From Pseudomonadota bacterium (GTDB taxonomy: Bacteria; Desulfobacterota; Desulfobulbia; Desulfobulbales; SURF-16): a stretch of DNA of 64,000 nt. Shown one piece after another: positions 49,917-64,000 of the stretch. Numbering within the stretch: the stretch's first letter is position 1; every line of letters begins with the position of its first letter. The DNA lies in contig JAHIVT010000039.1 of assembly GCA_018816555.1 (NCBI GenBank), forward strand, positions 1 to 64,000, in the 5' to 3' direction. Under the pieces are notes generated by a model. It had not been told where the DNA came from, ran no database searches, and saw only the letters and a program-made list of their open reading frames with translations. Position numbers and translations under genes: made by a program.

Positions 49917-50666
49917 CTATACTCCAAAACTTTTAACCAGCGAACCGACGATGAGATACCACCCGTCAACCAGAACGAAAAGAAGCAGTTTAAAGGGCAG
50001 AGAAACCATGACCGGGGGCAGCATCATCATACCCATGGAGAGCAGGACGCTGGCAACTACCATGTCAATGACCAGAAAGGGCAGAAAGAGGATGAAGCCT
50101 ATCTGGAAGGCGGTTTTCAGCTCACTGATGACAAAGGCGGGCATCAGTATCGTGGTGGGGACCTCGTCCTTGTTGGCAGGTTTCTGCATTTTGGCGATGC
50201 CGAGAAAAAGGGCGAGATCCTTTTCCCTTGTCTGTTTGAACATAAAAGCGCGCAGGGGCTTAATGCCTTGGGTAAAGGCCTGCTGCAGATCAATTTGTTG
50301 ATTCATGTACGGCGTGACCGCTGTCTCGTTCATTTCTTTCAGGACCGGGGTCATGATGAAAATGGTCAGAAACAGGGAAAGGCCTATGAGCAGCTGGGCA
50401 GGGGGCATCTGCTGCGTACCCAGGGCATTTCTCAGAAAGGAGAAGGCAACGACAAGTCTGGTGAAACAGGTGGTCATTAATATAATGGCCGGGGCAATGG
50501 ACAAAACGGTGAAAATGAGCAGGATCTCGATGAGTACGGAAACCTGTTTGGGGTCGTTGGTATCCGCCATGCCGATCTGTACCGTCGGCAGGGTGACGGC
50601 CTGGCAGTCCACCGTTACCATGAGCAGCAAAAGCAAAGGAGCGAGCAGCAGCAGAAATTTTTTCAT
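49917..50666 (-). CDS. fliP: Flagellar biosynthesis protein FliP
   Basis: A 249-aa protein with a cleavable signal peptide (MKKFLLLLAPLLLLLMVTVDCQA) and then the gate domain: SIAPAIILMTTCFTRLVVAFSFLRNALGTQQMPPAQ, FVISELKTAFQIGFILFLPFLVIDMVVASVL and SMGMMMLPPVMVSLPFKLLLF. It overlaps fliO by four bases. Confidence 0.96.
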   Translation of the reverse strand: MKKFLLLLAPLLLLLMVTVDCQAVTLPTVQIGMADTNDPKQVSVLIEILLIFTVLSIAPAIILMTTCFTRLVVAFSFLRNALGTQQMPPAQLLIGLSLFLTIFIMTPVLKEMNETAVTPYMNQQIDLQQAFTQGIKPLRAFMFKQTREKDLALFLGIAKMQKPANKDEVPTTILMPAFVISELKTAFQIGFILFLPFLVIDMVVASVLLSMGMMMLPPVMVSLPFKLLLFVLVDGWYLIVGSLVKSFGV

Positions 50667-51169
50667 TGGCCGCCCCTTTTGACCACCTTGGAGAGCAGGG
50701 TGGCGAAAGATGTCTGCTGAGGGCTTTCTTCCTGGCTTTCATGGACTTGGGTTGCGCCCGTCTCAAGTTTGGTAAGCATGGTGATCTGCTGGTCAGTAAT
50801 GCCAAGAGCCAGGGTTTGATCTGCCACCTGCACCACGGCGACATACTTTTTCGGGGCGATCATCTTTGTATCGATGATGCTGATAAGCCTTCCCTGTCGC
50901 AGCCCTGCCCGGCTCAGACCGAGTTTTCTGAACCAGACGGCAAGCAGCAGCATGATCCCCACCGTCAGTATCAGGGCGCCCGTTACCTTCATGATGGTAA
51001 GGGCAAGCGAGGTTGTCTGGGCAATATCCAGCACCGGGTCGGTTACCGATTTTACTGCCGGTTCGTCCGCCGCCCAGGCGGGTATGGTGGAAACCGCCAG
51101 GGTTACCAGCATTGCCCGGAGCATCCGTCCGGTTCTCTGTGCTGATCTGTGCAGAATGGAACCTCTCAT
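50663..51169 (-). CDS. fliO: Flagellar biosynthesis protein FliO
   Basis: A 168-aa protein. It has an N-terminal signal-like segment ending IPAWA, one transmembrane helix (about residues 62-84; VTGALILTVGIMLLLAVWF) and a cytoplasmic domain with LISIIDTKMIAPKKYVAVVQVADQTLALGIT, the FliO pattern. It assists FliP assembly. The start is ATG 51169; the frame is open upstream to 51193 without a better site. Confidence 0.85.
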   Translation of the reverse strand: MRGSILHRSAQRTGRMLRAMLVTLAVSTIPAWAADEPAVKSVTDPVLDIAQTTSLALTIMKVTGALILTVGIMLLLAVWFRKLGLSRAGLRQGRLISIIDTKMIAPKKYVAVVQVADQTLALGITDQQITMLTKLETGATQVHESQEESPQQTSFATLLSKVVKRGGQ

Positions 51170-51220
51170 AAGTCTCAACCCAATCAATACCATGAAGTGG
51201 AAGGGAAAGTTGATCAGCTT

Positions 51221-51658
51221 CTATGCCATGTTTTTAATGCGGTCCGCCTGGCTGATTATTTCCGTGATCCGCACGCCGAACCGGTCATTGACCACAATGA
51301 CCTCGCCTTTGCCCAGCAGCTTTCTGTTGACATATATTTCCACCGGTTCACCGGCCGCTTTGTCCAGTTCGACCACCGACCCCTGGGTCAACTGCAGCAT
51401 CTTGTCGATGATCATGCTGGTGCGCCCCAGTTCCACCGTGACATCCAGCGGGATGTCCAGCAGAAAATCAAGGTTGTGGCTGGAGGTATGGGGGGCGCCG
51501 CTATCCTCAAGTTCATTGAAGCTGGCGGGTCGGGAGTCTGCCCCGTTTTTGGCCAGGGTGTCCCAGTCGTCTCCGCCGGCGGCATCAGCAGCTCCGTTTT
51601 TCGGCTTCGCCTCTTCCAGGGCGTTTGCCCAAGCATCATCCAAAGATTCATCAGCCAT
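51221..51658 (-). CDS. fliN: Flagellar motor switch protein FliN
   Basis: A 145-aa C-ring protein. The C-terminal SpoA domain (about 68-145) contains FLLDIPLDVTVELGRTSMIIDKMLQLTQGSVVELDKAAGEPVEIYVN and ends KGEVIVVNDRFGVRITEII. The N-terminal ~60 residues are Ala/Glu-rich and probably flexible. The start is ATG 51658 after GGAGA, not the upstream in-frame start at 51691. Confidence 0.95.
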   Translation of the reverse strand: MADESLDDAWANALEEAKPKNGAADAAGGDDWDTLAKNGADSRPASFNELEDSGAPHTSSHNLDFLLDIPLDVTVELGRTSMIIDKMLQLTQGSVVELDKAAGEPVEIYVNRKLLGKGEVIVVNDRFGVRITEIISQADRIKNMA

Positions 51659-51671
51659 TTCCGTTTCTCCG

Positions 51672-52661
51672 TTAATCTCTTTCCCGGTCAAAAACCTTGC
51701 GTTTGATTAAAAAGGCCTTGTTGCCCCGGTGAATTCCGGGTGATCCCATATATTTTCTGATGCCGCCGACAAAGGCCGGCAGCATTTCATCTTTTCTTTT
51801 ATCAAGCTGGATAATATCCCCCACATCCAGGCTGAGAATGTCTCCGGCAGGGAGGATTGTCCTGCCCAATTCGGCCCTGAAGTCAACGGAAACACTTTTT
51901 ATATTTTCGGTGAGTATCCGTTTGAGACTGATGTCCTCGTCACTCTGCTCCCGCTGGAAAGTGGTCATCAGCTTCTGTTTGACGGATTCCAGGTTGGTGA
52001 GCGGGATGCAGGCGGTAATGCTGCCCACTGCCCGGTCCATATCCACTTCGTAGCGATTAATGATGACCACGTCTTCAGGTTCGCAGATTTTGGCGAATTG
52101 CGGGTTGATTTCGCTGCGAATATGCTGAACCTTGATGGGCTGCAGCGAGTACCATGCCTTTTCCAGATCACTGAGGATGAGGTTGACAATGCGCTGGATC
52201 AGCCGCTGCTCAATGCCGGTGAAATCCCGCCCCTCAATCCTTACATTTCGGGTGCCGCTGCCGCCCAGAAAGCTTTCCACAAAGGCGAAGACCAGTTTCG
52301 GCTCAATGACGAACAGGGCGTGGCCGCGAAAAGGATCCATTTTAAAGATCTGCAGACTGCTGGGCACCGGCAGGGTACGGACAAAGGCGCCGAAGCGTTC
52401 CAGTTCCATGGGAACCGCGGTGATATCCAGGATGCGTCGCAGCGAGGCGGAGATCGATGACCGGATGGAACGAAGAAACACATCGTTGATTGCCTCCATG
52501 GCCGGCATTTTGATCTGGACGATACGTTCCTGCCGGGTGAAATCATAGGAAGAGTATTCGAGGGCCTCCTCGTCAAGCTGCTCTTCCGGTTCTTCAATGT
52601 CGCCCCCTGCAATTCCCTTTAATAGGGCGTCAACTTCGTCTTGGCTGAGGATTTGTTCCAT
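51672..52661 (-). CDS. fliM: Flagellar motor switch protein FliM
   Basis: A 329-aa C-ring protein. The N-terminal CheY-P-binding peptide (ILSQDEVDALLKGI) is present, followed by the CheC-like middle domain (FVRTLPVPSSLQIFKMDPFRGHALFVIEPKLVFAFVESFLGG) and the C-terminal SpoA domain (GRTILPAGDILSLDVGDIIQLDK). It should respond to the CheY encoded at 41892-42272. Confidence 0.96.
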   Translation of the reverse strand: MEQILSQDEVDALLKGIAGGDIEEPEEQLDEEALEYSSYDFTRQERIVQIKMPAMEAINDVFLRSIRSSISASLRRILDITAVPMELERFGAFVRTLPVPSSLQIFKMDPFRGHALFVIEPKLVFAFVESFLGGSGTRNVRIEGRDFTGIEQRLIQRIVNLILSDLEKAWYSLQPIKVQHIRSEINPQFAKICEPEDVVIINRYEVDMDRAVGSITACIPLTNLESVKQKLMTTFQREQSDEDISLKRILTENIKSVSVDFRAELGRTILPAGDILSLDVGDIIQLDKRKDEMLPAFVGGIRKYMGSPGIHRGNKAFLIKRKVFDRERD

Positions 52662-52715
52662 GGAGATCTATAGGCTTTCAGTTAGTGGCAAAATGCCGGT
52701 TCTGTTGTGGATGCA

Positions 52716-53216
52716 TTACTGCACGACGAATTCGGAAAAGTAGATATTTTTGACTTTGTCGGGACGAGTTACCCGGTTGAAACGTTCGAGAAGCTCATCC
52801 CTGATGCGCAGTTTGCCCTCCGGCGTCATCACCTCTTCAAAGGAGAGGCTGGTCAGCATCATGATCACGAGGTCCCTGAGCTTGGGCGTTACCTTCTGCA
52901 CTCTCTCCGACGCCTCCAGTGTGTCAAGCTCCAGGCTGATTTTCATTTTCAGGTAGCGGTTTCCCTTCGGGTCGGCCAGATTGACCACAAAAGGCTCCAG
53001 GGTGACGATTTCGCCCACGGTTTCAGGCATGTCTGCCGGGTTGACCGGGACCGGCACGGCCGGTGGCGGCTTCGGGGCCAGAAACTGGGTGTAGGCGAAA
53101 TAGCCGCCGGCGCCCAGAAGGAGGATGGCCACTCCCAGAATAATAAAGAGAATTTTTTTGGACTTCTTGGTGGGCTCTACCGTCCCTTCTCCGGCCTTGG
53201 CCTGCTCATCTGCCAT
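52716..53216 (-). CDS. fliL: Flagellar basal body-associated protein FliL
   Basis: A 166-aa single-pass membrane protein. It has a Lys-rich cytoplasmic N terminus, a helix at about 21-43 and a periplasmic domain (VGEIVTLEPFVVNLADPKGNRYLKMKISLEL, then LRDLVIMMLTSLSFEEVMTPEGKLRIRDELL and VKNIYFSEFVVQ), typical of stator-associated FliL. It is the first gene of the flagellar operon, behind a sigma-54-like site. Confidence 0.95.
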   Translation of the reverse strand: MADEQAKAGEGTVEPTKKSKKILFIILGVAILLLGAGGYFAYTQFLAPKPPPAVPVPVNPADMPETVGEIVTLEPFVVNLADPKGNRYLKMKISLELDTLEASERVQKVTPKLRDLVIMMLTSLSFEEVMTPEGKLRIRDELLERFNRVTRPDKVKNIYFSEFVVQ

Positions 53217-53273
53217 TGTATTGTCTCCCCAAAAAGAAAAAATCAGATGTTATAGTTGTCTGTCCATGCCCAC

Positions 53274-53289
53274 TGCGAGTATTATGCCA
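53274..53289 (-). promoter_or_regulatory. Probable sigma-54 promoter of the fliL operon
   Basis: On the minus strand TGGCAT-AATAC-TCGCA keeps the invariant GG-N10-GC spacing and the TGGCA element, with two departures from consensus. It lies 58 bases before fliL. Sigma-54 control of middle flagellar genes is common in polarly flagellated Proteobacteria. Confidence 0.5.
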
Positions 53290-53522
53290 CACTTGCCGGC
53301 AATAGTAAATCTGAGGATAACAGGCTGTTATTATTTGGTTTGCCATTGGAAATCCTAACCTGTTGTCTTTTCAGGGCGGACAGGAGAGGGTGGCAATGGT
53401 CATTTTTCTGACTGCCAGCAGGGTGAAGAGTCAAAAAAATGAAGGTTCTTATGGCCATGAATATAAAGGTCTGGGCGATGACAAAATTGACCATTTATGG
53501 TAAAGGGCAACGACAATTTATG

Positions 53523-53567
53523 AAAGTGTCTAAAATGCCTAGAGTACTTAAAGTGCCTAAAGTTAAA
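53523..53567 (+). repeat. 9-bp tandem repeat, five units
   Basis: Five consecutive 9-bp units: AAAGTGTCT, AAAATGCCT, AGAGTACTT, AAAGTGCCT, AAAGTTAAA. Since 9 is a multiple of 3, the array is open in the frame of an ATG at 53520 and would encode a 29-residue peptide of KVP/KVL type ending at 53609, but no ribosome site is evident. The rest of the 445-base gap 53217-53661 shows no gene beyond the fliL promoter and, presumably, the acn promoter. Confidence 0.6.
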
Positions 53568-53661
53568 GGAGTTGTCCGGCCAAGTTCTGCTGCGCAATGC
53601 ATGACCTGATGACAGTTTTCAAAGTTTCCATGATATCAGCAAAATAACAGGAGTTAGACAA

Positions 53662-55581
53662 ATGGGTAAAACCGTTACGGAAAAAATACTTGAGGCTCAC
53701 CTGGTTGAAGGTGAGATGATTAAAGGCAGGGAGATCGGTATCCGCATTGATCAGACCTTGACCCAGGATGCCACAGGGACCATGGCTTATCTGGAATTCG
53801 AATCCATCGGCATCCCGCGGGTGCAGACCGATTGTTCCGTCTGCTACGTTGACCACAATCTGGTGCAATCGGATTTCAAGAATGCCGATGATCACCGTTT
53901 TCTGCAAACCATTGCCAGAAAATACGGTCTCTATTTTTCCCCTCCGGGTAACGGCATTTCCCATCAGATCAATCTGGAGAGGTTCGGCAAGCCGGGCAAG
54001 ACCCTGCTCGGTTCGGACAGCCATACCCCCACCGGCGGCGGACTCGGCATGCTGGCCATCGGCGCCGGCGGGCTTGATGTGGCCATGGCCATGGCCGGGA
54101 AACCGTTTTATCTGGTCATGCCCAAGGTTTTCGGGGTGAAGCTCACCGGAAAATTTTCTCCCTGGGTGTCGGCCCGGGACGTGCTGCTGGAACTGCTTCG
54201 CCAGCTTTCCGTCAAAGGCGGGGTGGGCTACATCATTGAATATTTCGGGCCGGGGGTGAAAGAGCTTTCCGCCACGGACCGTGCCTCGATCACCAATTTC
54301 GGGGCGGAACTCGGGGCCACCACCTCGGTGTTTCCTTCGGATGAGAATACCCAGAAATTCTTGAAAAGCCAGGGCCGGGAGGATTGCTGGAAGGAGATCG
54401 TTGCCGATGCGGATGCCCAGTATGACGAGATTATTGAAATTGACCTGTCCACCCTGGAGCCCATGATCGCCTGTCCCTCATCCCCTGATAATGTGGTGAA
54501 GGTGAGCGAGGTGGCCGGGCGGCCCGTTTCCCAGGTGCTGGTAGGCTCCTGTTCTAACTCTTCCCTGCGGGATCTGCTGGTGGTGGCCAAAACCCTGGCA
54601 GACAGACCAGTGAGCAACGAGGTGAGTTTCGAGATTAACCCGGGCAGCCGCCAGGTGCTGGAGAATCTCACCGCCATGGGTGAAATGCTGCCCTTGATTC
54701 ATGCCGGGGCCAGGGTGCATCAGGCCGGTTGCCTCGGCTGTATCGGCATGGGCCAGGCACCGGCAACCGGCACCATCTCCCTGCGCACTTTTCCTCGCAA
54801 TTTCCCCGGTCGCAGCGGCACGGTGAACGATCAGGTCTATCTCTGCAGTCCCGAGGTGGCCGTTGCTTCAGCCATTAGCGGCAAAATCACCGATCCCCGC
54901 GATCTGGGCGACTATCCGGCTTTCACCCTGCCGGATAAATATCTGCCCGGGGACTCCCGGATTGAGCCGCCGATTGCCGATGGCAGCGGGGTAGAGATCA
55001 TCCGCGGGCCGAATATCGCCCCGTTCCCGACCTTTGCCCCCATGCCGGAAACCTGGCAGGGCACGGTGCTGCTCAAGGCCGGCGATAACATCACCACGGA
55101 TCATATCATGCCGGCCGGAGCCCAGATACTGCCCCTGCGCAGCAATATCCCGGCGATCAGCGAATTTGTCTTCAAGGCCCTGGATGAGCATTTCAGCCGG
55201 CATGCCAAGGAGGCGGGCACCGGTATGATAGTGGGCGGCGAGAACTACGGGCAGGGCTCTTCCCGGGAGCACGCGGCCCTGGCTCCCCGCTATCTCGGGG
55301 TGGAGGTGAAACTGGTGAAAAGTTTTGCCCGCATCCATAAAGCCAATCTGATCAACTTCGGCATCCTGCCCCTGACCTTTGCCGATACCGCTGATTATGA
55401 CCGGATCAGGCAGGGCGCCAAGGTGGTCATCTCCGGCTTGCGCAAGTCCCTTGAGGGTGGTGCGAAAACCCTTTCCGTGGAGATCGATGGCGAGAGCATT
55501 CAGGCGGTTCTCGATGTTTCCGAGCGCCATCGGCAGATCCTACTGGCAGGCGGCTTGCTCAATTGGGCCAAGGGAAATTAA
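53662..55581 (+). CDS. Aconitate hydratase (short bacterial/archaeal type)
   Basis: A 639-aa aconitase converting citrate to isocitrate. The large-subunit part carries SHTPTGGGLGMLAIGAGG and the three cluster-ligand cysteines, in VGSCSNSSLRDL and HQAGCLGCIGMGQ. The swivel domain follows with GDNITTDHIMPAG, NYGQGSSREHAAL and SFARIHKANLINFGILPL. It is the ~640-residue form seen in many Desulfobacterota and archaea, not the 890-residue AcnA. Start at ATG 53662. Confidence 0.94.
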   Translation: MGKTVTEKILEAHLVEGEMIKGREIGIRIDQTLTQDATGTMAYLEFESIGIPRVQTDCSVCYVDHNLVQSDFKNADDHRFLQTIARKYGLYFSPPGNGISHQINLERFGKPGKTLLGSDSHTPTGGGLGMLAIGAGGLDVAMAMAGKPFYLVMPKVFGVKLTGKFSPWVSARDVLLELLRQLSVKGGVGYIIEYFGPGVKELSATDRASITNFGAELGATTSVFPSDENTQKFLKSQGREDCWKEIVADADAQYDEIIEIDLSTLEPMIACPSSPDNVVKVSEVAGRPVSQVLVGSCSNSSLRDLLVVAKTLADRPVSNEVSFEINPGSRQVLENLTAMGEMLPLIHAGARVHQAGCLGCIGMGQAPATGTISLRTFPRNFPGRSGTVNDQVYLCSPEVAVASAISGKITDPRDLGDYPAFTLPDKYLPGDSRIEPPIADGSGVEIIRGPNIAPFPTFAPMPETWQGTVLLKAGDNITTDHIMPAGAQILPLRSNIPAISEFVFKALDEHFSRHAKEAGTGMIVGGENYGQGSSREHAALAPRYLGVEVKLVKSFARIHKANLINFGILPLTFADTADYDRIRQGAKVVISGLRKSLEGGAKTLSVEIDGESIQAVLDVSERHRQILLAGGLLNWAKGN

Positions 55582-55902
55582 AAAAATTGTACTTTTGCTC
55601 TGCCATACATGTCTAAACAATCACTTGTAGCTGTTTTTTGCTGCAGCAATGGGGGACAGGGGCGGTACAAAAAATTGGACTTGTTGTAATGTGCTGATTT
55701 TATTTAATAATTTTGTTTTGTTTTGGCAAAATGGTCAGGAGTATAAAAAATTGTATTTTTTGAGGGAGGATTCAGTTTTGAGAAAAAATTTTATTTCCTT
55801 ATGCTGCAAGGGATTGAAGAGAAATTTTTTTTTCTGAGCTGTTTGGCACGCCTGTTGCTTTTATCACAAATCAAGATAACAACTCTTATCTCCTTTCTCC
55901 AG

Positions 55903-55940
55903 AAAAAGGCCTATCCTGTCCCCCCAGGATCGGCCTTTTT
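55903..55940. terminator. Intrinsic terminator after aconitase
   Basis: AAAAAGGCC-TATCCTG (55903-55918) pairs with CAGGAT-CGGCCTTTTT (55925-55940), a strong stem closed by a six-base loop and flanked by A and T tracts, so it can work in both directions. The preceding AT-rich stretch 55582-55902 shows no credible gene. Confidence 0.85.
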
Positions 55941-55994
55941 CGTTTTGTGGCCCCAACCCTTTGCTTCTCCTCCTGTTTTCTCGACTGACAAACC

Positions 55995-56930
55995 ATGGAA
56001 ATTTCATCGAAACATGTAGGCATCCAGCGCTGCCCCGCCTATGACCGGCGGGTTATCAAGGAGCAGGCTGCCACCATTGCTGCGGCCCTGGGTTTTCGCC
56101 TTGCGCCGGCAAGCAGGGTGCTGCTGAAGCCGAACCTGGTATCCGGCCGCGGCCATAATGGCCTCGCCTGCACCCACCCGGAATTTGTGGCAGCGGTTGC
56201 CGAGTGGTGCCTGGATTGCGGGGCCAGGGTAGCCATCGGCGATTCCCCTGCCTTTGGCCGGGCTCCCTCGGTGATGCGGGCCTGCGGCATTGCCCAAAGT
56301 CTTAAGGGGCTGCCGGTTGAACTGATCCATTTCGGCCCGGCTCGGCAGGTGAGGCTTGCCTGCGGCGAGCGGCTCACCTTGGCCGCCGAGGCGCTGGATT
56401 GCGATATTCTCGTCAATCTCCCCAAGTTCAAGGCCCATTCCCAGACCCTGATCACCCTGGCAGTGAAAAATTATTTCGGCACGGTGAAAGGATTCGGCAA
56501 GGCCCTGCTCCACCAGAAACTGGGGGAGGATGAGCAGGCTTTCTGCCGTATGCTGGTGGATCTGCTTGCGGTTTTGCCAGGTGGTATTAGTTTGATCGAT
56601 GGGGTGCAGGCCATGCACCGGAAAGGCCCGATGAACGGGGAAATGTTTCCCCTGGGGATGGTGGCGGGCTCGGTCAATCCCGTGGCCCTGGATACCGCCA
56701 TGCTGCTCATGCTCGGCATGAAGCCTGAACAGAGCATGATCTGGCGGGAGACAGAGAGGCAAAAACTTGCAGGGGCCAGGCCGGAGGAGCTTCTCTTTCC
56801 GTTACTTCAGCCCTTGGATATAGCGGCGAATGGCTTTGTCCTGCCGTCAGCATTGAAACCGATACCCTTCCGGCCCCTGCAGGTTTTCAACAGTATGGTC
56901 AAACGGGTCCGGCTGTTGTTGCATTCGTAA
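55995..56930 (+). CDS. DUF362 domain protein
   Basis: A 311-aa protein of the DUF362 family. It shows VLLKPNLVSGRGHNGLACTHPEFVAAVAEW, IGDSPAFGRAPSVMRACGI, CDILVNLPKFKAHSQTLITLAVKNYFGTVKGF and SLIDGVQAMHRKGPMNGEMFPLG. No ferredoxin cysteine motifs are present, unlike the longer family members fused to 4Fe-4S domains. The function of the family is unknown. It starts 54 bases after the terminator, with ATG 55995. Confidence 0.8.
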   Translation: MEISSKHVGIQRCPAYDRRVIKEQAATIAAALGFRLAPASRVLLKPNLVSGRGHNGLACTHPEFVAAVAEWCLDCGARVAIGDSPAFGRAPSVMRACGIAQSLKGLPVELIHFGPARQVRLACGERLTLAAEALDCDILVNLPKFKAHSQTLITLAVKNYFGTVKGFGKALLHQKLGEDEQAFCRMLVDLLAVLPGGISLIDGVQAMHRKGPMNGEMFPLGMVAGSVNPVALDTAMLLMLGMKPEQSMIWRETERQKLAGARPEELLFPLLQPLDIAANGFVLPSALKPIPFRPLQVFNSMVKRVRLLLHS

Positions 56931-57052
56931 GGGGTTGGTGTGGTCCTGCCGGAAGTATTTTTTCCTATGATTTTCTGTCTGCATAGGGAGCTGGGAATGT
57001 GTTGCAGGTATTAGACTGATATCTTGGCTATTAAAAATAACCCTGTCCATTT

Positions 57053-57610
57053 TCATGGCTCTATCAGATTGTTGATTCCAGACAAGAGCACGTTGAAACT
57101 TTTGGAGCAGTTGGATTTTAAATTCAAATAGGGCGCGATCGCACGGGATCCCGACACTTTATCATAGGTATTACTGGTAAGTCTGAATAACTCAACGGCT
57201 GGATTACCCAGAGCATCGGGGTTCCGAAACTTCTTTCCCAGTTGCTTTTTTTTAAGCCCTTTGAGGCCAAGCCCCTTTTCCACGGCAGCCAGATCGCCCA
57301 GATAAAAACTCTCTAATTCCCGACAAACAACGCGAACCAGTACTCCATCCTTTCCAGCCTCGCGGCAGAGTCCGACCAACTTTGTTTTTATTGCCCTGCA
57401 ATCACCTGAATCCTGATCACGCATTACAACAAAGATGGAGTCCGGCAGCATCCAGCCCTGCAATTTCGCTTTTAGGTTTTTCTCCAGGTCCTGCTTTCCC
57501 TGAAACACAACATAGCGAATAGGCATATCATCAGGGAGAATACGTGGAAGAATCCCTGCAAGCATTTCTCGCGCTGATGGCTCTTCAAGAAAAAACACAA
57601 TGGTTTTCAT
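57053..57610 (-). CDS. DUF4276/RloB-like (Toprim-fold) protein, partner of the AAA ATPase
   Basis: A 185-aa protein with an early acidic motif FFLEEPSAREML (residues 6-17), a DQD motif in FVVMRDQDSGDCRAIKTKL (about 60-78) and a conserved ELESFYLGD segment (about 98-106). This layout (Glu, then DxD) resembles Toprim-like nucleases of the DUF4276/RloB group (inference). Its start overlaps the stop of the ATPase gene by four bases. In PARIS- and AbiL-like defence systems, an ATPase paired with such a nuclease-like protein acts against phages. Confidence 0.72.
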   Translation of the reverse strand: MKTIVFFLEEPSAREMLAGILPRILPDDMPIRYVVFQGKQDLEKNLKAKLQGWMLPDSIFVVMRDQDSGDCRAIKTKLVGLCREAGKDGVLVRVVCRELESFYLGDLAAVEKGLGLKGLKKKQLGKKFRNPDALGNPAVELFRLTSNTYDKVSGSRAIAPYLNLKSNCSKSFNVLLSGINNLIEP

Positions 57611-58794
57611 CGAGGATCGGCTCCTTCAAGAAAGCCTTGCTCCCAGAGGTACCCCATCTGATCGCCTTGGGCCATATACGCTGTGAGCTGTTCGTCATCC
57701 TTTGCTCGCCGGATTTGGGAATAACCATCTTTTTTTACCAGCCAGAACACCTCATCAATTCTTGCCGCGTTCAAGAAATCTGGGGAATGTGTTGAGACAA
57801 AAACCTGCCCACCTCGATTGGCATAAGCTCGGAATTCCTCGGCAAGTTCCCATAAAAGTTTCGGATAGAGCTGGTTCTCCGGCTCTTCCACGCACAGCAA
57901 CGGATGGGGGGTTGGGTCATAAAGCAGAGTTAAGTAAGCAAGCATCTTGATGGTGCCGTCGGAAACGTACCGGGCGAGAAAAGGATCTTCAAACACGCCG
58001 TCCTGGAATTTCAGTAGGACTCGGCCCTCTTCAGTAGTTTTAGAATCGACATAGGAAATGCCGGGTACTCTTTTTTTAAGAAGATCGAGAATTTTTTTAA
58101 AAATCTTTTCATGATGATTGTGCAGGTATTGAATAACCAAGGACAGGTTTTCGCCTTCGCGGGACAGATGTTCAGCATATCCTGCTTCCTGTTCCGGCCG
58201 CGCCTTACTGATATGAAAATCGGAAACATGCCAATTTTCGATGAGATTGCCGAGTGCCATAACTGCCGGAAATCTCGCAAACTGCGCTAATCCTTTGACG
58301 GCGAGGATGTCGGTTGATTTCAGCGTTTGTTCTTCCCGGTTCAATTCCTTCACATCAGATACGGAATCAAGTTCATTTGTAACTGCTGTACCCTTGCCTC
58401 GGGTAAAATTAAGAAAGTGCCAAGGCTGCCCGCTGCTTCCCCTTCTGTATTTAAGAACCTCCCGTTCCACTAATGCCTTGCCTTTCTTTTCACCAATCTG
58501 CAGGAAGTAAGTGGTTAAAGGACTATCGGGTTTTGCACGGAATTTCAGCTCTATTTCAATTGGACCTTTGGAATTACGACTACGTACTTCTTGAAATCCC
58601 CGACTTCCACCGAGCTTCATTAAGGCAGTATTCACATTAGTAGTGAGCGCATCGCGGAGAAAACCAAACACACTGAAAATGGTACTTTTTCCAGTACCAT
58701 TAGCGCCGACAACAACACAGAAATTAGGCAGATCCGTCAGTTCAGCGTCTTGAAAGGCCTTAAAATTCTTTAACCTTATTGACTCGATTTTCAT
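57607..58794 (-). CDS. AAA (ABC/SMC-like, AAA_21) ATPase of a two-gene defence-like pair
   Basis: A 395-aa ATPase of the RecF/OLD-like group. It shows IRLKNFKAFQDAEL at the N terminus, Walker A GANGTGKSTIF (about 31-41), an internal helical insertion, the VSDGTIKMLAYLTLL signature-like region (about 280-294), Walker B LLCVEEPENQLYP (about 302-314) and the switch histidine FVSTHSPDFL (about 335-344). It has no Toprim domain of its own; the downstream partner supplies it. The upstream gap 58795-59357 holds no gene I can support; its AT-rich first part should carry the promoter. Confidence 0.82.
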   Translation of the reverse strand: MKIESIRLKNFKAFQDAELTDLPNFCVVVGANGTGKSTIFSVFGFLRDALTTNVNTALMKLGGSRGFQEVRSRNSKGPIEIELKFRAKPDSPLTTYFLQIGEKKGKALVEREVLKYRRGSSGQPWHFLNFTRGKGTAVTNELDSVSDVKELNREEQTLKSTDILAVKGLAQFARFPAVMALGNLIENWHVSDFHISKARPEQEAGYAEHLSREGENLSLVIQYLHNHHEKIFKKILDLLKKRVPGISYVDSKTTEEGRVLLKFQDGVFEDPFLARYVSDGTIKMLAYLTLLYDPTPHPLLCVEEPENQLYPKLLWELAEEFRAYANRGGQVFVSTHSPDFLNAARIDEVFWLVKKDGYSQIRRAKDDEQLTAYMAQGDQMGYLWEQGFLEGADPR

Positions 58795-59357
58795 TCGCTA
58801 TTTCCTCGCTGCTTAACCGCATTGCATGCATCCAAATTAATTATTTGAGAGGTACGCTTAACTTTCAAATCACCACTTCTCTTAGTTTAGGCTGAAATTA
58901 ACAGTGTATTTACGATGAGATATCCTGATTACCCTCGGATTAAACAGATAGGATAATTAATAGGGAAAAGTCAACATATTTCCCAAAAACTTGTTTCCCC
59001 CACTTGCCAAGAATGCAAAGCTGATTTTTTCATCCTGCAATTTGTTGTTAAAGCGATAAAGCTGAATCCGCAAGAAAAATCAATCTACTATCCGTTTTTG
59101 CCACAATCAACCTGCAGCCTCGCCTGCTAAATATCTTATCCTTAAATTTCAACCTGTTGCCATTTTCGAACAGAGCTGGATTACCGTGGGGAATGCCGCT
59201 TTTGATTGTCTCGTAACCCCCCCCTCGACAGCCGTCCAGAGCATGATAAATAACTGATTTATCGTCACCCAAAAGCGGTGCTGGGAGTTATTGAGAAGCC
59301 ATCAATTTTCATTGGAAGGTGGAGGACTTTTTGGTAAAGTGACATTCCTTAGTTAGA

Positions 59358-59550
59358 ATAAACAGGCAGGAAGTTCTTGTGGGCAAGCGAAGCGCGACCC
59401 GGAATCGGCATGCCGGACTCGAAGTCTACGCTCCGCTTCGTTATCTGATACGGCCTCCAGGAATCGTCCGGATAGCATAAACACTGGATTCTTCCTGGAC
59501 TTGATCCAGGATCTACCGGAATGACGAGCGGAAATATTGTTATATGCTTC
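59358..59550. repeat. Dispersed ~200-bp repeat, copy 1
   Basis: It shares with 61943-62155 the left end ATAAACAGGCAGGA, a ~60-bp near-identical core (59387-59446, including GCATGCCGGACTCGAAG and CGCTCCGCTTCG), the CGGAATGACGA motif and the right end GTTATAT. It contains inverted AAGCGAAGCG/CGCTTCG arms. No coding potential in a consistent frame. The CCGGAATGACG motif is a common hallmark of intergenic repeats in several bacterial groups. Confidence 0.75.
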
Positions 59551-59675
59551 ATTGTTTCAATATGTTATGCAAACTTCGGAAGTTGAATTTTTTTATAAAA
59601 TTAGAATCATTGACAGTTTTGCAGGGGGCTTATGCCTAAAATTATAAAAAAAGAACATAAAAGGAGGAGTTGAAA

Positions 59676-60794
59676 ATGAAGAGACTACAATCGCTATGGA
59701 TTTTATTTCTCATCGGCTTTCTTGCCGGCTGTGCGCCCATGGCGTCAGAAACCGCTTTTACCCCTACTGATCTTTCAGGCAAGCTGGGGCAGGGTTACAA
59801 GCAAAAGGTTGATAATGCCGTGATCATCCTGGATGCCTCGTCATCCATGTATGACAAGGAAAATGGAAAACAAAAAGTTGAACAGGCCAAGAACGTCGTT
59901 CTGCATATGAACGATACCCTGCCGCCCCTTAAAATGCAGGCCGGCCTGCATGTGTTCGGCCCCACCCTGGGACCAAACATGGATGACAGCAAGCTGATCT
60001 ACGGTATGACGGACTATAATGCCGCAGATCTCGCGGCAGCGGTCAAAACCGTACAGGTTGCCGGCGTGACCCCGCTCGCCAAACCTCTGCTGAAAAGTAT
60101 AGACGACCTGAAAAACAGTCAGGGACAAATTGCCGTCATTGCCGTCAGCGATGGAATAAATACCGCTACCCAATCCCCGGTTGAGGCTGCCGAAGCTCTG
60201 AAAAATGCCTTTGGTGAGAGAATCTGTATCTATACGATCCTGATTGGCAGCAACCCGGTAGGTAAAAAGGTGCTGGAAGATGTCGCCGCCGCCGGAAAAT
60301 GCGGATTCGCGACCACGGAAGGCGATGTTGCCACAAGCGAGGGCATGGCGGATTTTGTGGAAAAGGTCTTCTTTGAAAAAGAGGTCGTTAAGCCAGTTGT
60401 TCAGAAGGTCGTTCCGGCACCCGTTATGGAAAAAACCATCACCATGGATCTGAAGGTGCTGTTTGATTTTGATAAAACCACCATCCGTCCCCGGGAGCAA
60501 GACCAGCTTGATGAGTTTGCCGCCTTTATGAAATCACACCCGCAGACCACCGCGGTTCTTGAAGGCCATACTGACAATATTGGTTCGGCAGCCTACAATG
60601 ACGGTCTGTCACAGCGCAGAGCGGAAAGTGTGAAAAAATATCTGGTGAAACAATTAGGCCTTGAAGAAGCACGGCTCACCACAAAGGGCTATGGTTTCTC
60701 ACAGCCCATAGCCACAAACAAGACAAAGGCGGGACGTCAGGAAAACCGCCGGGTTGTGGCTGTCATTTCAGCAACTATAACTGTAAAAGAATAA
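59676..60794 (+). CDS. Lipoprotein with VWA-like and OmpA domains
   Basis: A 372-aa outer-membrane lipoprotein. It has a lipobox LAGC at residues 18-21, a von Willebrand factor A domain with a MIDAS-type DASSSM motif (about 51-56) extending to about 225, and a C-terminal OmpA/Pal domain (about 265-370). The last includes LFDFDKTTIRPREQDQLDEF and LEGHTDNIGSAAYNDGLSQRRAESVKKYL, which binds peptidoglycan diaminopimelate. The start ATG 59676 follows AAGGAGGA at 7 bases. It is followed by a strong terminator and sits alone between two repeat copies. Confidence 0.87.
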   Translation: MKRLQSLWILFLIGFLAGCAPMASETAFTPTDLSGKLGQGYKQKVDNAVIILDASSSMYDKENGKQKVEQAKNVVLHMNDTLPPLKMQAGLHVFGPTLGPNMDDSKLIYGMTDYNAADLAAAVKTVQVAGVTPLAKPLLKSIDDLKNSQGQIAVIAVSDGINTATQSPVEAAEALKNAFGERICIYTILIGSNPVGKKVLEDVAAAGKCGFATTEGDVATSEGMADFVEKVFFEKEVVKPVVQKVVPAPVMEKTITMDLKVLFDFDKTTIRPREQDQLDEFAAFMKSHPQTTAVLEGHTDNIGSAAYNDGLSQRRAESVKKYLVKQLGLEEARLTTKGYGFSQPIATNKTKAGRQENRRVVAVISATITVKE

Positions 60795-60819
60795 GTAAAG
60801 GGTGTTTGCATCCGTAACC

Positions 60820-60857
60820 AAAAAGCATGTCAGGCGTCAAGACCTGGCATGCTTTTT
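60820..60857 (+). terminator. Terminator of the OmpA/VWA lipoprotein gene
   Basis: AAAAAGCATGTCAGG (60820-60834) pairs with CCTGGCATGCTTTTT (60843-60857) with one mismatch; the T run is part of the stem end. It works in either direction, so it may also serve the facing pliI gene. Confidence 0.8.
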
Positions 60858-60939
60858 GGGCGTTTAAGGCCTTTATCCTTTTTTGTGGTTTTGCATTCTT
60901 TCGCAGGGAAATAATTAAAAGAAGGAAACAGGCGACCGA

Positions 60940-61389
60940 TCAATTCCGCTTCCCAGTGGCTTTTCGAAGGGCTGCGATGGGATCCGCGTCAGGTGGGAGG
61001 GCCTCGACCACAGCACAAAAACTCAGAAGTTGTTTGTCAAAGGCGAATGCATGGGCTGAGAGATATCCTCCCGTCCCAGTGGAACGCACAATTACGATGA
61101 TCTCGGGTTGCTGGTCGCCAAAGACATCGGCGAGCACGACTTTTTCAATCCCTCCATCCCGTGCGCGAACAACGCCTGCGCTGAAGAAGGTGGTTTCATC
61201 CCCGGGTGGTGCGGCGTCATAAAGCCGCACGCTGAAGCTGCCGATGGAGCGAGCCTCAAAATCCCCTTCCGCGACCACGACCGTCTGCTTCGAGGGGAGT
61301 GCAACCTGCGTGACAAAACGCTCTAACTCTGCAGCATGCAGCGTTCTGGACGCAAGCAATGCTATAGCGAGTGCAAAGAATTTGTTCAT
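60940..61389 (-). CDS. pliI: PliI-family inhibitor of i-type lysozyme
   Basis: A 149-aa protein with a signal peptide (MNKFFALAIALLASRTLHA) and a mature domain matching PliI: LPSKQTVVVAEGDFEARSIGSFSVRLYD, VLADVFGDQQPEIIVIVRSTGTGGYLSAHAFAFD and LPPDADPIAALR. The SGxxxxY/SVGSGSY-type inhibitory loop corresponds to RSTGTGGYLSAH. PliI is a periplasmic inhibitor of invertebrate-type lysozyme (family knowledge). It is a single gene facing the lipoprotein gene, inside the repeat-bounded segment. Confidence 0.8.
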   Translation of the reverse strand: MNKFFALAIALLASRTLHAAELERFVTQVALPSKQTVVVAEGDFEARSIGSFSVRLYDAAPPGDETTFFSAGVVRARDGGIEKVVLADVFGDQQPEIIVIVRSTGTGGYLSAHAFAFDKQLLSFCAVVEALPPDADPIAALRKATGKRN

Positions 61390-61475
61390 GTGTCACCTGC
61401 TTTATGAGGCTTTATCCGAATATGAGCTACCGCAGGCCATGGCTGTTAGGGAACCACTTGACCGAAGAATGACCT

Positions 61476-61604
61476 TCAAGGTAAATAAATTTTCTGAACC
61501 GGAAAAAGTCGATGGGATTCAAACACGGTCAGGATCGATATTCTATCAGAGTGGACTTGGTAGACGATCCGATGCAGTTTCATCAAGAGCGCCTGGCACT
61601 CTGC
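61476..61604 (-). pseudogene. C-terminal remnant of a RelE/ParE-family toxin
   Basis: On the minus strand the last ~40 codons before the stop at 61476 read LMKLHRIVYQVHSDRISILT then VFESHRLFP. This fits the final beta strands of ParE/RelE toxins (RIVY.V..D.I.IL.V...R). Upstream the frame runs into the motif GGAGACAGATTTA and the intron fragment, so the N-terminal half and any antitoxin are gone. Confidence 0.45.
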
Positions 61605-61634
61605 CGAATAAATGTAAAAGGAGACAGATTTATT

Positions 61635-61942
61635 GTGCGGCCGGGCAAGGTCGAGTTCAGCGGGTGTGAATCCCGCCCCGGAAGGTTGGCCAACCACAGG
61701 GTAGCAAGTCCTTGGAGGCTGTATGGTAACATACAGCTTTAAGCGTAGGACAGCGAGCAGACAGGCCGTAAGCCGAAAGGTTGAAGGGATTGAGCCACGT
61801 AATTGTCGCGTTGGGAAGGACAACTCTGTAATAAAAGTGGAAGTCAACACAGGTATCGCCGCTAACGGCAAGGTGATGCTTGCTTCCTCGGGGTCAGAGA
61901 CCATTGAAGATGGAGAACTTTTTTGTACAGTAACGCTCTTTA
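61635..61942 (+). mobile_element. Truncated group II intron (5' RNA domain only)
   Basis: It begins with GTGCGGCCGGGCAAGG, a group II intron 5' end (GUGYG). It continues with GGGTGTGAATCCCGCC and the CTTTAAGCGTAGGACAGCGA and AAGGGATTGAGCCACG segments, as in the domain I of bacterial introns that encode reverse transcriptases. A hairpin GCTGTATG/CATACAGC is inside. No reverse transcriptase frame follows; the sequence gives way to the dispersed repeat at 61943. It is therefore a 5' fragment, unable to splice. Confidence 0.6.
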
Positions 61943-62155
61943 TTGATAAACAGGCAGGATTATTCGAACTTGCAGCCAGGACGTCCTTGCCGGCAAGCGA
62001 AGCGCGACCTGGAATCGTCATGCCGGACTCGAAGTCTACGCTCCGCTTCGCTATCTGCTCCGGCATCCAGAAAACTCCAGGACTTGGATAAAGAGTGGAT
62101 TCCGGCCAAAAACATGTCGGAATGACGACCTGCGATAGTGTTATATAATTTGCGA
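61943..62155. repeat. Dispersed ~200-bp repeat, copy 2
   Basis: A second copy of the element at 59358-59550 in the same orientation, with the same ends and core (GGCAAGCGAAGCGCGACC, then CATGCCGGACTCGAAGTC). The two copies differ in the interior, where indels replace about 40 bases. They bracket the lipoprotein gene, pliI, the toxin remnant and the intron fragment (2.4 kb). Confidence 0.75.
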
Positions 62156-62190
62156 TCTCCAGCCATTATGCGCCTATGATAGTTTCGGGG

Positions 62191-62262
62191 GTAGGAGTGG
62201 GCCATGCCCGCGACTTTTGGCAATGCGGAAATAATGGTATCGCGGGCATGACCCACTCCTAC
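62191..62262. repeat. REP doublet (BIME-like inverted repeat)
   Basis: 23-bp arms at 62191-62213 (GTAGGAGTGGGCCATGCC then CGCGA) and 62240-62262 are inverted with one mismatch, loop 26. GTAGGAG...GCCCGCGA sequences are typical of REP elements mobilised by RAYT-type Y1 transposases (family knowledge); no such transposase gene is in the window. The remaining gap to htpX holds nothing else I can name. Confidence 0.75.
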
Positions 62263-62396
62263 GGCAGGAAGTCATGTCGCGACGGGAAGACCAACCTGAA
62301 ATGGAAGAGAACAGCACAGTGTAAATGATGACATTGAGTGGTAAACGAAAATTAAAATGACGAACACGTTTGCACGAGACTTTATGGAGGATTGTT

Positions 62397-63245
62397 ATGA
62401 CAAGTATGATTAAAACCGGCATCCTGATGGCTGCCTTGACCGGACTTTTTCTGGTGGCCGGCCAGGCCCTGGGCGGCCAAAGCGGCATGACCTTTGCCCT
62501 GGTGATGGCGCTGGGTATGAATTTTTTTGCCTACTGGTTCAGCGATAAAATGGCGCTGGCCATGAGCCGGGCCAGGGAGGTCAGTGAAGCTGAGGCGCCT
62601 GATCTGCATCAGATGGTGAGTTACCTGGCCGACAGGGCTGAACTTCCCAAGCCGCGGGTCTATATCATCAACGACCATACACCCAACGCCTTTGCCACGG
62701 GCCGCAATCCCCAGCATGCGGCGGTGGCGGTAACCAGCGGTTTGATGCAGCTCCTCAGCCGGGATGAGCTGGAAGGGGTACTGGCCCATGAGCTGGGCCA
62801 TGTCAAAAACCGGGATATCCTTATCAGCTCCATTGCCGCGGTCATGGCCGGAGCCATCAGTTACCTGGCCACCATGGCCCAATGGGCCATGCTTTTCGGC
62901 GGCTTGCGCGGCGATGACGACGAAGGCGGCGGAAACATGCTGGCAGGTCTGGCCATGATGATCATCGCCCCGCTGGCAGCAACCATCATCCAACTGGCGA
63001 TTTCCCGCAGCAGGGAATTCCAGGCGGATGCCAGCGGCGCCGCCATCTGCGACCGTCCCCATTCCCTGGCCAATGCCTTGGCCAAGCTGGAGCAGGGCAA
63101 TCGCCGCCAGCCCATGAATGTGAACCCGGCCACGGCACAGATGTATATCGTCAATCCCCTTTCCGGCGGCCAGATCGCCGGCCTGTTCGCCACCCATCCG
63201 CCGATCAGGGAGCGTATCGAACGTCTGCTGGCGATCCGTAATTGA
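62397..63245 (+). CDS. htpX: Membrane zinc metalloprotease HtpX
   Basis: A 282-aa M48 peptidase. It has two N-terminal helices, the zinc motif [14 protein letters not shown] (HExxH, about residues 130-140), two more membrane segments and the third ligand in [13 protein letters not shown] (about 203-215). HtpX removes damaged membrane proteins alongside FtsH. The start is ATG 62397, seven bases after GGAGG; an earlier TTG at 62370 includes that ribosome site. Confidence 0.95.
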
Positions 63246-63282
63246 TCCCGGGGTTCGCGCCTTTCCGCGTTAAAGGGAAACC

Positions 63283-63303
63283 GGGCGGGCATGAAACCCG
63301 CCC
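63283..63303. repeat. GC-rich hairpin after htpX (REP-like)
   Basis: GGGCGGG (63283-63289) and CCCGCCC (63297-63303) form a perfect 7-bp stem with loop CATGAAA, followed by CCTATTGTTT. It resembles a second class of REP unit and may also end htpX transcription. The rest of 63246-63544 shows no supported gene. Confidence 0.5.
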
Positions 63304-63544
63304 CTATTGTTTGGATTCTTCCAGCACAATGGCCCGGGAGGTAAATGAAATGCCCTGCTGCCGTGGTGCCGATCATCACGGTTTCCTGCATCAGGGCATT
63401 GACCATTACTGCCGCTTTTCCCCCGACGGTTATGATAAATGCCAGAAGAATCGTGAAGATATCTTTACAATCTTTCGTGAAAACTTTATCATTTTATATT
63501 CTGAAAATCATTATCCAATTCCGTAAATGAAGGAGTCTTTATAA

Positions 63545-64000
63545 ATGTATAATCTTGAAGGAAAGGTTGCCCTGGTAACCGGAAGCTCCCGGGGCATAGG
63601 CCGGGCGATTGCCAAGCGTTTTGCCGAAAACGGCATCAACCTGGTGGTAAACTATGTCCGCCACAGGCGGGATGCTGAGGATACGGCCAAGGACATTGAA
63701 AGTTCCGGGGTAAAATGCCTGGTGGTCAAGGCCAACGTGGCAAATGATGAGGATGTGCTGGCCATGTTCGAGCGGATAAAAGAAGAGTTCGGTCGTCTCG
63801 ATATTCTGGTGAGCAATGCCGCCTCCGGTGTGCTCAAGCCGGTTATGGAGTTGAGCACCCGGCACTGGAACTGGGCCATGGATATCAATGCCAGGGCGCT
63901 GCTCACCCTGGCCCAGCAAGCTGTTCCCTTAATGCCGCACGGTGGACGGATATTGGCCGTTTCCAGTCTCGGGTCTGTCAGGGCGGTGGAAAATTACACG
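63545..64000 (+). CDS. fabL: Short-chain dehydrogenase, FabL-type enoyl-ACP reductase, 5' part
   Basis: The first 152 residues of an SDR enzyme, cut by the window end. It shows the cofactor motif VTGSSRGIGRAIAKRF (TGxxxGIG, residues 12-20), NVAND, and then SNAASGVLKPVMELSTRHWNWAMDINARALL. The NAASGVL...HW.W.M.IN pattern and SSLGSVRAVENYT are features of FabL (enoyl-ACP reductase III, NADPH-dependent) rather than FabG. Start at ATG 63545 after AAGGAG. The catalytic Tyr/Lys lie beyond the window. Confidence 0.8.
   Translation, partial: MYNLEGKVALVTGSSRGIGRAIAKRFAENGINLVVNYVRHRRDAEDTAKDIESSGVKCLVVKANVANDEDVLAMFERIKEEFGRLDILVSNAASGVLKPVMELSTRHWNWAMDINARALLTLAQQAVPLMPHGGRILAVSSLGSVRAVENYT

Follow-up and report, generated by a model that had tools for sequence, protein, structure and literature searches.

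Known two-part ATPase–Toprim systems

HEC-01, a catalogued candidate defence system, reportedly entered PADLOC-DB from a 2024 preprint by Payne et al., and PADLOC carries no domain description for it. A literature search whose reach did not extend to the founding preprint returned no paper assaying HEC-01. HEC stands for Hma-embedded candidate; in one paper several HECs are reported to be antiviral, with HEC-06 named (PMC12988326). HEC-04 is active against T4 and T5 according to a second paper (PMC12111858), and a third, on Desulfovibrio piger, mentions HEC-01 (PMC12724379).

Better characterised systems combine similar parts. In PARIS, the ATPase senses a phage anti-restriction protein and activates a tRNA-cutting Toprim nuclease, as outlined in two papers (PMC12839542, PMC12409363). 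The detection rule for PARIS calls for a DUF4435 (PF14491) partner beside an AAA_15/AAA_21 ATPase (PMC9122126). Aravind and colleagues, according to PMC12839542, described a class of TOPRIM-linked OLD-ABC operons. OLD nucleases of class 2 (B. pseudomallei, X. campestris) and class 1 (T. scotoductus) contain the same two parts, joined in a single chain. In OLD of B. pseudomallei, metal is bound by E400, E404, D455xD457, T506 and E508, and K562 is also catalytic (PMC6755086). The pairs that we describe below as HEC-01-type join this ATPase-plus-Toprim class, to which PARIS, OLD and Gabija belong.

Gene layout and family assignment

The window (the entire 64,000-nt stretch of contig JAHIVT010000039.1 under analysis) encodes two adjacent genes on the minus strand, both with intact reading frames. 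The first is an OLD/SMC-type ABC ATPase gene (57607–58794, 395 aa), and the second encodes a DUF4276 protein (57053–57610, 185 aa) that is a predicted OLD-type Toprim nuclease. The last four nucleotides of the ATPase gene are the first four of the nuclease gene (ATGA, 57607–57610, minus strand). This confirms the four-base overlap given in the first-pass annotation, and from it we infer translational coupling of the two genes. The ATPase matches Pfam AAA_21 (E 7e-29) and AAA_15 (E 6e-21), and the 185-aa protein exceeds the family cut-off for DUF4276 (E 3.5e-9).

A PADLOC search, as the first-pass annotation had suggested, matched both genes to HEC-01 over their full length: the ATPase to PDLC04144 (684.9 bits, residues 1–394) and the 185-aa protein to PDLC04143 (272.8 bits, residues 1–183), two models whose A/B suffixes are swapped relative to the remaining HEC-01 models. 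The adjacency expected of HEC-01 is present, in the same two-gene order. Other PADLOC families score much lower against the ATPase (AriA 96, AbiLi 91 and mad3 89 bits). Because both genes match HEC-01 full length, the combination is already catalogued, and the earlier suggestion of an under-described variant is not supported. Relatives of the pair lie amid Hma genes and genes of type III restriction, whereas the window copy is solitary and does not lie between Hma genes; we do not take the Hma-embedded founding context as a requirement for membership. The observation is confirmed, and the pair is an ordinary member of the catalogued system. We consider it quite probable that the host acquired this lone copy of the HEC-01 candidate defence system recently and that it works as an ATPase-switched Toprim nuclease. 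The ATPase likely serves as sensor, scaffold and switch and the DUF4276 protein as effector.

The proposed parallel with PARIS (AriA and AriB) holds for the two-part design, in which an OLD-type ABC ATPase is encoded next to a Toprim nuclease, but not for membership. The partner here is DUF4276 rather than DUF4435: a Pfam search at E up to 1 found no DUF4435 in the pair, and none occurs in the whole genome of the host at E 1e-8. The ATPase matches the AriA models at 96 bits versus 685 for HEC-01, and the nearest solved folds listed for the small protein are those of OLD. MADS was likewise considered and rejected. Its MAD3 ATPase is homologous to the window ATPase, which scores 117.2 bits against the NCBIfam MAD3 model (cut-off 420), and no MADS genes lie alongside.

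The DUF4276 protein

Structure prediction points to a Toprim fold for the DUF4276 protein, for which a literature search found no paper containing the word DUF4276. The AlphaFold2 model, built with 69 homologues (mean pLDDT 96.1, pTM 0.90), has strands at residues 3–8, 31–35, 58–65 and 91–95 that alternate with helices, followed by a helical tail. Among solved structures, its five top matches all come from the Toprim region of OLD nucleases, led by 6nk8 (Z 11.4, rmsd 3.9, 168 residues aligned) and followed by 6njv, 6p74, 6njw and 6njx (Z 10.6 to 9.6). The sixth is 2p62 (PH0156; Z 9.3), after which come unrelated lumazine synthases (Z ≤8.4). The Z gap between OLD and unrelated structures in these model-based comparisons is modest, yet ranking, coverage and motifs agree. 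Foldseek returned 6nk8 as the sole match at E < 0.001. AriB was not among the 50 structure matches listed, which does not exclude a likeness.

Sequence comparisons detect the relationship less readily. A profile of the 69 homologues found no relative among PDB sequences, only two chance rows (E 0.44 and 0.81). Profile–profile comparison with 10 OLD Toprim regions gave a weak match (probability 2.8%, E 0.016) with the motifs in register, a result that we count against the ATPase-switched nuclease reading.

The acidic residues are conserved across the 69 homologues: E9, D67, E98 and E100 in 69/69 and D65 in 68/69. The structural match places residue 1 on OLD residue 392, an offset that aligns E9 with OLD E400, and D65xD67 and E98xE100 follow the same order as OLD D455xD457 and T506xE508; on this mapping by offset and order, E98xE100 may stand in for T506xE508. 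The invariant Glu and DxD of OLD are represented by E9, D65 and D67, the residues behind the earlier description of a small protein with Glu and DxD motifs. Two features differ: E98xE100 takes the place of T506xE508, and the position equivalent to the metal-B ligand E404 (position 13 by the same offset) is Ala in 64/69 homologues and E in one. Because of this alanine, the active site is Toprim-like and not identical to that of OLD, and the lack of an acidic counterpart to E404 also weighs against our preferred reading. From the model, the 185-aa protein is predicted to correspond, as a protein in its own right, to the C-terminal part of OLD nucleases (Toprim plus helical region), which it matches over most of its length, with E9, D65, D67, E98 and E100 as its predicted acidic metal site. 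In OLD, ATPase and Toprim domains share one chain, whereas here they are two separate proteins. The expectation of a Toprim fold in the first-pass annotation is borne out at the level of the predicted structure. Since the OLD-type Toprim assignment of DUF4276 names individual residues, point mutants offer a direct way to test the mechanism.

The ATPase

The ATPase carries Walker A (GANGTGKST, residues 30–38), the ABC signature (VSDGT, 277–281), Walker B (LLCVEEPE) and the switch histidine H336. All four are intact, as the earlier description of an OLD/SMC-like ATPase with intact Walker motifs would have it, and they are almost invariant across 71 homologues. These comprise the window and 70 of the 79 full-length ATPase loci; L039, L040, L045, L064, L073, L074, L078, L085 and L102 are omitted from the alignment. 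The ATPase model (mean pLDDT 88.7) resembles SMC/Rad50 heads as well as PtuA, the ATPase found in Septu and retron systems (Z 19–21).

Conservation and pairing of the two genes

A protein scan of genome contigs found ATPase relatives at 80 loci (60–88% identity), in bacteria of many phyla and the archaeon Methanogenium. The 185-aa protein is matched in 23 of 193 related genomes. A full-length ATPase gene and the small gene are adjacent at 87 loci and overlap by exactly 4 nt in 71 of them, so the pairing is not chance. These 87 include the window itself and some loci fetched twice via different tools; within the genome-contig subset, the exact overlap is found in 55 of 68. At 11 of the 79 full-length ATPase loci in genome contigs no full-length nuclease gene was found, a point against our preferred reading; some of these loci lie at contig ends and some do not. 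Fusion of the two proteins was not seen: of 210 matching ORFs at these loci, none corresponds to both.

Two loci, L068 and L102, have a full-length HEC-01 ATPase with no recognisable small partner downstream and do not lie at contig ends. Downstream, L068 instead has a 97-aa protein that reads as GIY-YIG-like from its sequence, and a ResIII helicase.

The ATPase is more conserved than the small protein in 82/87 loci (median identity 72.6% versus 56.8%). Phyla are mixed in the tree of 71 ATPases: Thermodesulfobacteriota (12 rows) require nine changes, at least seven of which are forced by starred branches. Fourteen loci have divergent ATPases. Thirteen of these form a well-supported clade in the ATPase tree, with the fourteenth weakly joined, and the same 14 are scattered in the small-protein tree (ten changes, three forced by starred branches). 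Because the bootstrap of the small-protein tree had not settled, partner exchange is a lead only. At L096, L100, L104 and L011 the small protein is nearer to that of the window than the ATPase is, the opposite of most loci; partner exchange is a possible explanation for this sequence pattern.

Genomic context of homologues

Relatives of the pair often sit among restriction genes. Among immediate upstream neighbours of at least 250 aa, 13 of 47 contain a DNA methyltransferase motif (72 proteins examined). Immediate downstream neighbours of the same length contain a methyltransferase motif in 1/37 and a helicase motif in 3/37 (62 examined). Control proteins of at least 250 aa gave 0/53 for either motif (123 examined); they come from fixed positions in 11 regions of three same-order genomes, without matching to the genomes in which the homologues occur. 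Both neighbour sets exclude L044, L085 and L111, which are near-copies of other loci; four loci have no upstream ORF, and the downstream set also drops L033, L039 and L055, where the neighbour is a fragment of the small gene itself. PADLOC matched HmaB (4), MTase_III (4) and MTase_I (3) among the 72 upstream proteins, tallies that may overlap, and gave single matches among the 62 downstream. Because the 123 control ORFs also include methyltransferase matches (MTase_II 2, PglX 2), these tallies amount to a moderate excess only, and the motif count is the clearer indication of a methyltransferase context.

Individual loci illustrate this setting. Matches to HmaA, HmaB and HmaC lie beside relatives of the pair; at L037 the pair stands between MTase_III and REase_III of a type III system, and at L042 a SNF2-type helicase follows it. 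On the Synechocystis plasmid pSYSM_M, the pair is near a phosphorothioation-associated methyltransferase gene and toxin–antitoxin genes. A scan of viral sequences with a single sequence as query found nothing, and with the alignment as query it found one locus, a viral contig with the pair between repressor and integrase genes. The phage on this contig looks P2-like, judging from its tail, replication and CII-like genes. In phage GenBank records the 185-aa protein was unmatched. Positions behind restriction-operon methyltransferases and between repressor and integrase are typical of defence cargo. With many homologues in such contexts, the first-pass proposal of a phage-defence module is likely correct, as far as gene neighbourhoods can indicate.

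A toxin–antitoxin or addiction pair, with the ATPase as antidote to the Toprim nuclease and no specific antiviral role for a unit that persists selfishly on mobile DNA, would also be an overlapping two-gene unit that moves as a minimal cassette. The toxin–antitoxin genes on the Synechocystis plasmid and the title of Pfam AAA_21, which names the AbiEii type IV toxin–antitoxin system, fit this alternative. Against it stand the recurrence of the pair behind restriction-operon methyltransferases and its place inside a P2-like prophage, flanked by repressor and integrase; an antitoxin ATPase that is more conserved than its toxin would be unusual. We regard it as improbable.

Transfer unit and chromosomal site

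The pair has moved between genomes as a discrete unit. The comparison covered the last 14 kb of the window (50001–64000) and 18 kb surrounding the copy at L131, whose host belongs to another genus of the same family. The two are 96.1% identical over 1,943 bp (57046–58988), with both edges abrupt. This transferred unit consists of both genes, 7 bp past the second stop and 194 bp upstream. The upstream region (58795–58988, minus strand), an inferred promoter region, moved with the pair and also stands beside the copy in another genus. A promoter scan found promoter-like sites at chance level (5 versus 4.1 expected; the best at 58868–58840), and a terminator scan found one terminator-like site versus 3.2 expected. 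The G+C content is 45% in the transferred unit and 54% in the left flank.

In the window, 5,466 bp (56931–62396) separate a DUF362 gene from htpX, where the sister species G005 has only 149 bp; G005 carries its own HEC-01 copy on another contig (L134). In G004, different genes come next on the DUF362 side. Among them is a distinct pair of an ATPase and a small Toprim-like protein, oriented the same way (L132), which matches the HEC-01 models PDLC04180 (463 bits) and PDLC04194 (180 bits); similarity to the right flank resumes only within htpX (window position 63069). From these two comparisons, one chromosomal site holds no pair, the pair of the window or another HEC-01-type pair, which offers a natural comparison between sister species. 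By sequence comparison, the pair behaves as a mobile defence cassette that is horizontally moved as a unit. Beyond the existing catalogue entry, this analysis contributes an OLD-type Toprim assignment down to specific residues, the precise limits of the two-gene transfer unit and a site occupied by different pairs in sister species.

Within the 5.5-kb stretch there are also a dispersed repeat and two genes, one OmpA-like (OmpA/VWA) and one PliI-like. The PliI-like gene (60940–61389; Pfam PliI, E 7e-39) encodes a putative periplasmic lysozyme inhibitor and adjoins the OmpA/VWA gene. Copies of the ∼180-bp repeat at 59363–59545 and 61973–62102 flank the OmpA-like/PliI-like stretch; with one copy as query, the repeat is found at 13 places in its own genome, several of them short, and has many partial matches in sister species. 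The placement of the pair at the border of a repeat-rich accessory region was partly right: the pair does lie in a stretch that is absent from the sister species G005 and contains the repeat. Its immediate neighbours in the window include no defence genes and are housekeeping genes, which we count against a defence role.

A DNA repair or recombination accessory pair in a housekeeping role, with a RecF/SbcCD-like ATPase and a Toprim protein acting as RecF and RecR do, would agree with the SMC/Rad50-head fold of the ATPase, and RecR and RNase M5 contain Toprim domains (PMC6755086). The patchy distribution of the small protein, horizontal movement, phylum mixing in the ATPase tree, the deviating G+C content and a site that is nearly empty or differently filled in sister species make this very unlikely.

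Both genes are under purifying selection since their split from the nearest copy (G011), as codon changes are mostly silent and dN/dS is 0.07 and 0.09 for the two genes. A decayed or neutral passenger without present function, a reading that the solitary position without defence genes alongside might invite, is the least probable of all given this selection, the intact frames and the intact predicted catalytic residues.

Proposed mechanism

For the preferred HEC-01 reading, an ATP-dependent switch that restrains and then frees or stimulates a nuclease can be proposed by analogy with the systems above. The ATPase would dimerise or oligomerise with ATP and keep the nuclease inactive. A phage-made trigger would then release or activate the nuclease; because the pair often sits among restriction genes, interference with restriction is one possible trigger. 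The metal-dependent Toprim nuclease would cut nucleic acid, either phage or host DNA or, as AriB does, tRNA, and this cutting would stop the phage from multiplying, probably through abortive infection. A guard that responds when restriction fails would fit the pair's many positions among restriction genes. A broader conjecture, which we hold to be doubtful, is that the DUF4276 proteins of HEC-01 are the split-off catalytic half of OLD with a remodelled metal-B site; the pair would serve as a portable restriction guard that fires once restriction is blocked, its two genes would at times swap partners, and chromosomal sites such as that between DUF362 and htpX would trade one HEC-01 subtype for another.

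Further pairs in the same genome

The host genome encodes three further ATPase and small-protein pairs, at L136 (contig C60), L137 (C34) and L138 (C88), two of which match HEC-01 models for both genes. HEC-01-type pairs thus look common and mobile. At L138, HEC-01 is a weak match for the ATPase (147 bits), and a search at E 1e-15 found no PADLOC model for the 230-aa partner; this pair is possibly an undescribed subtype.
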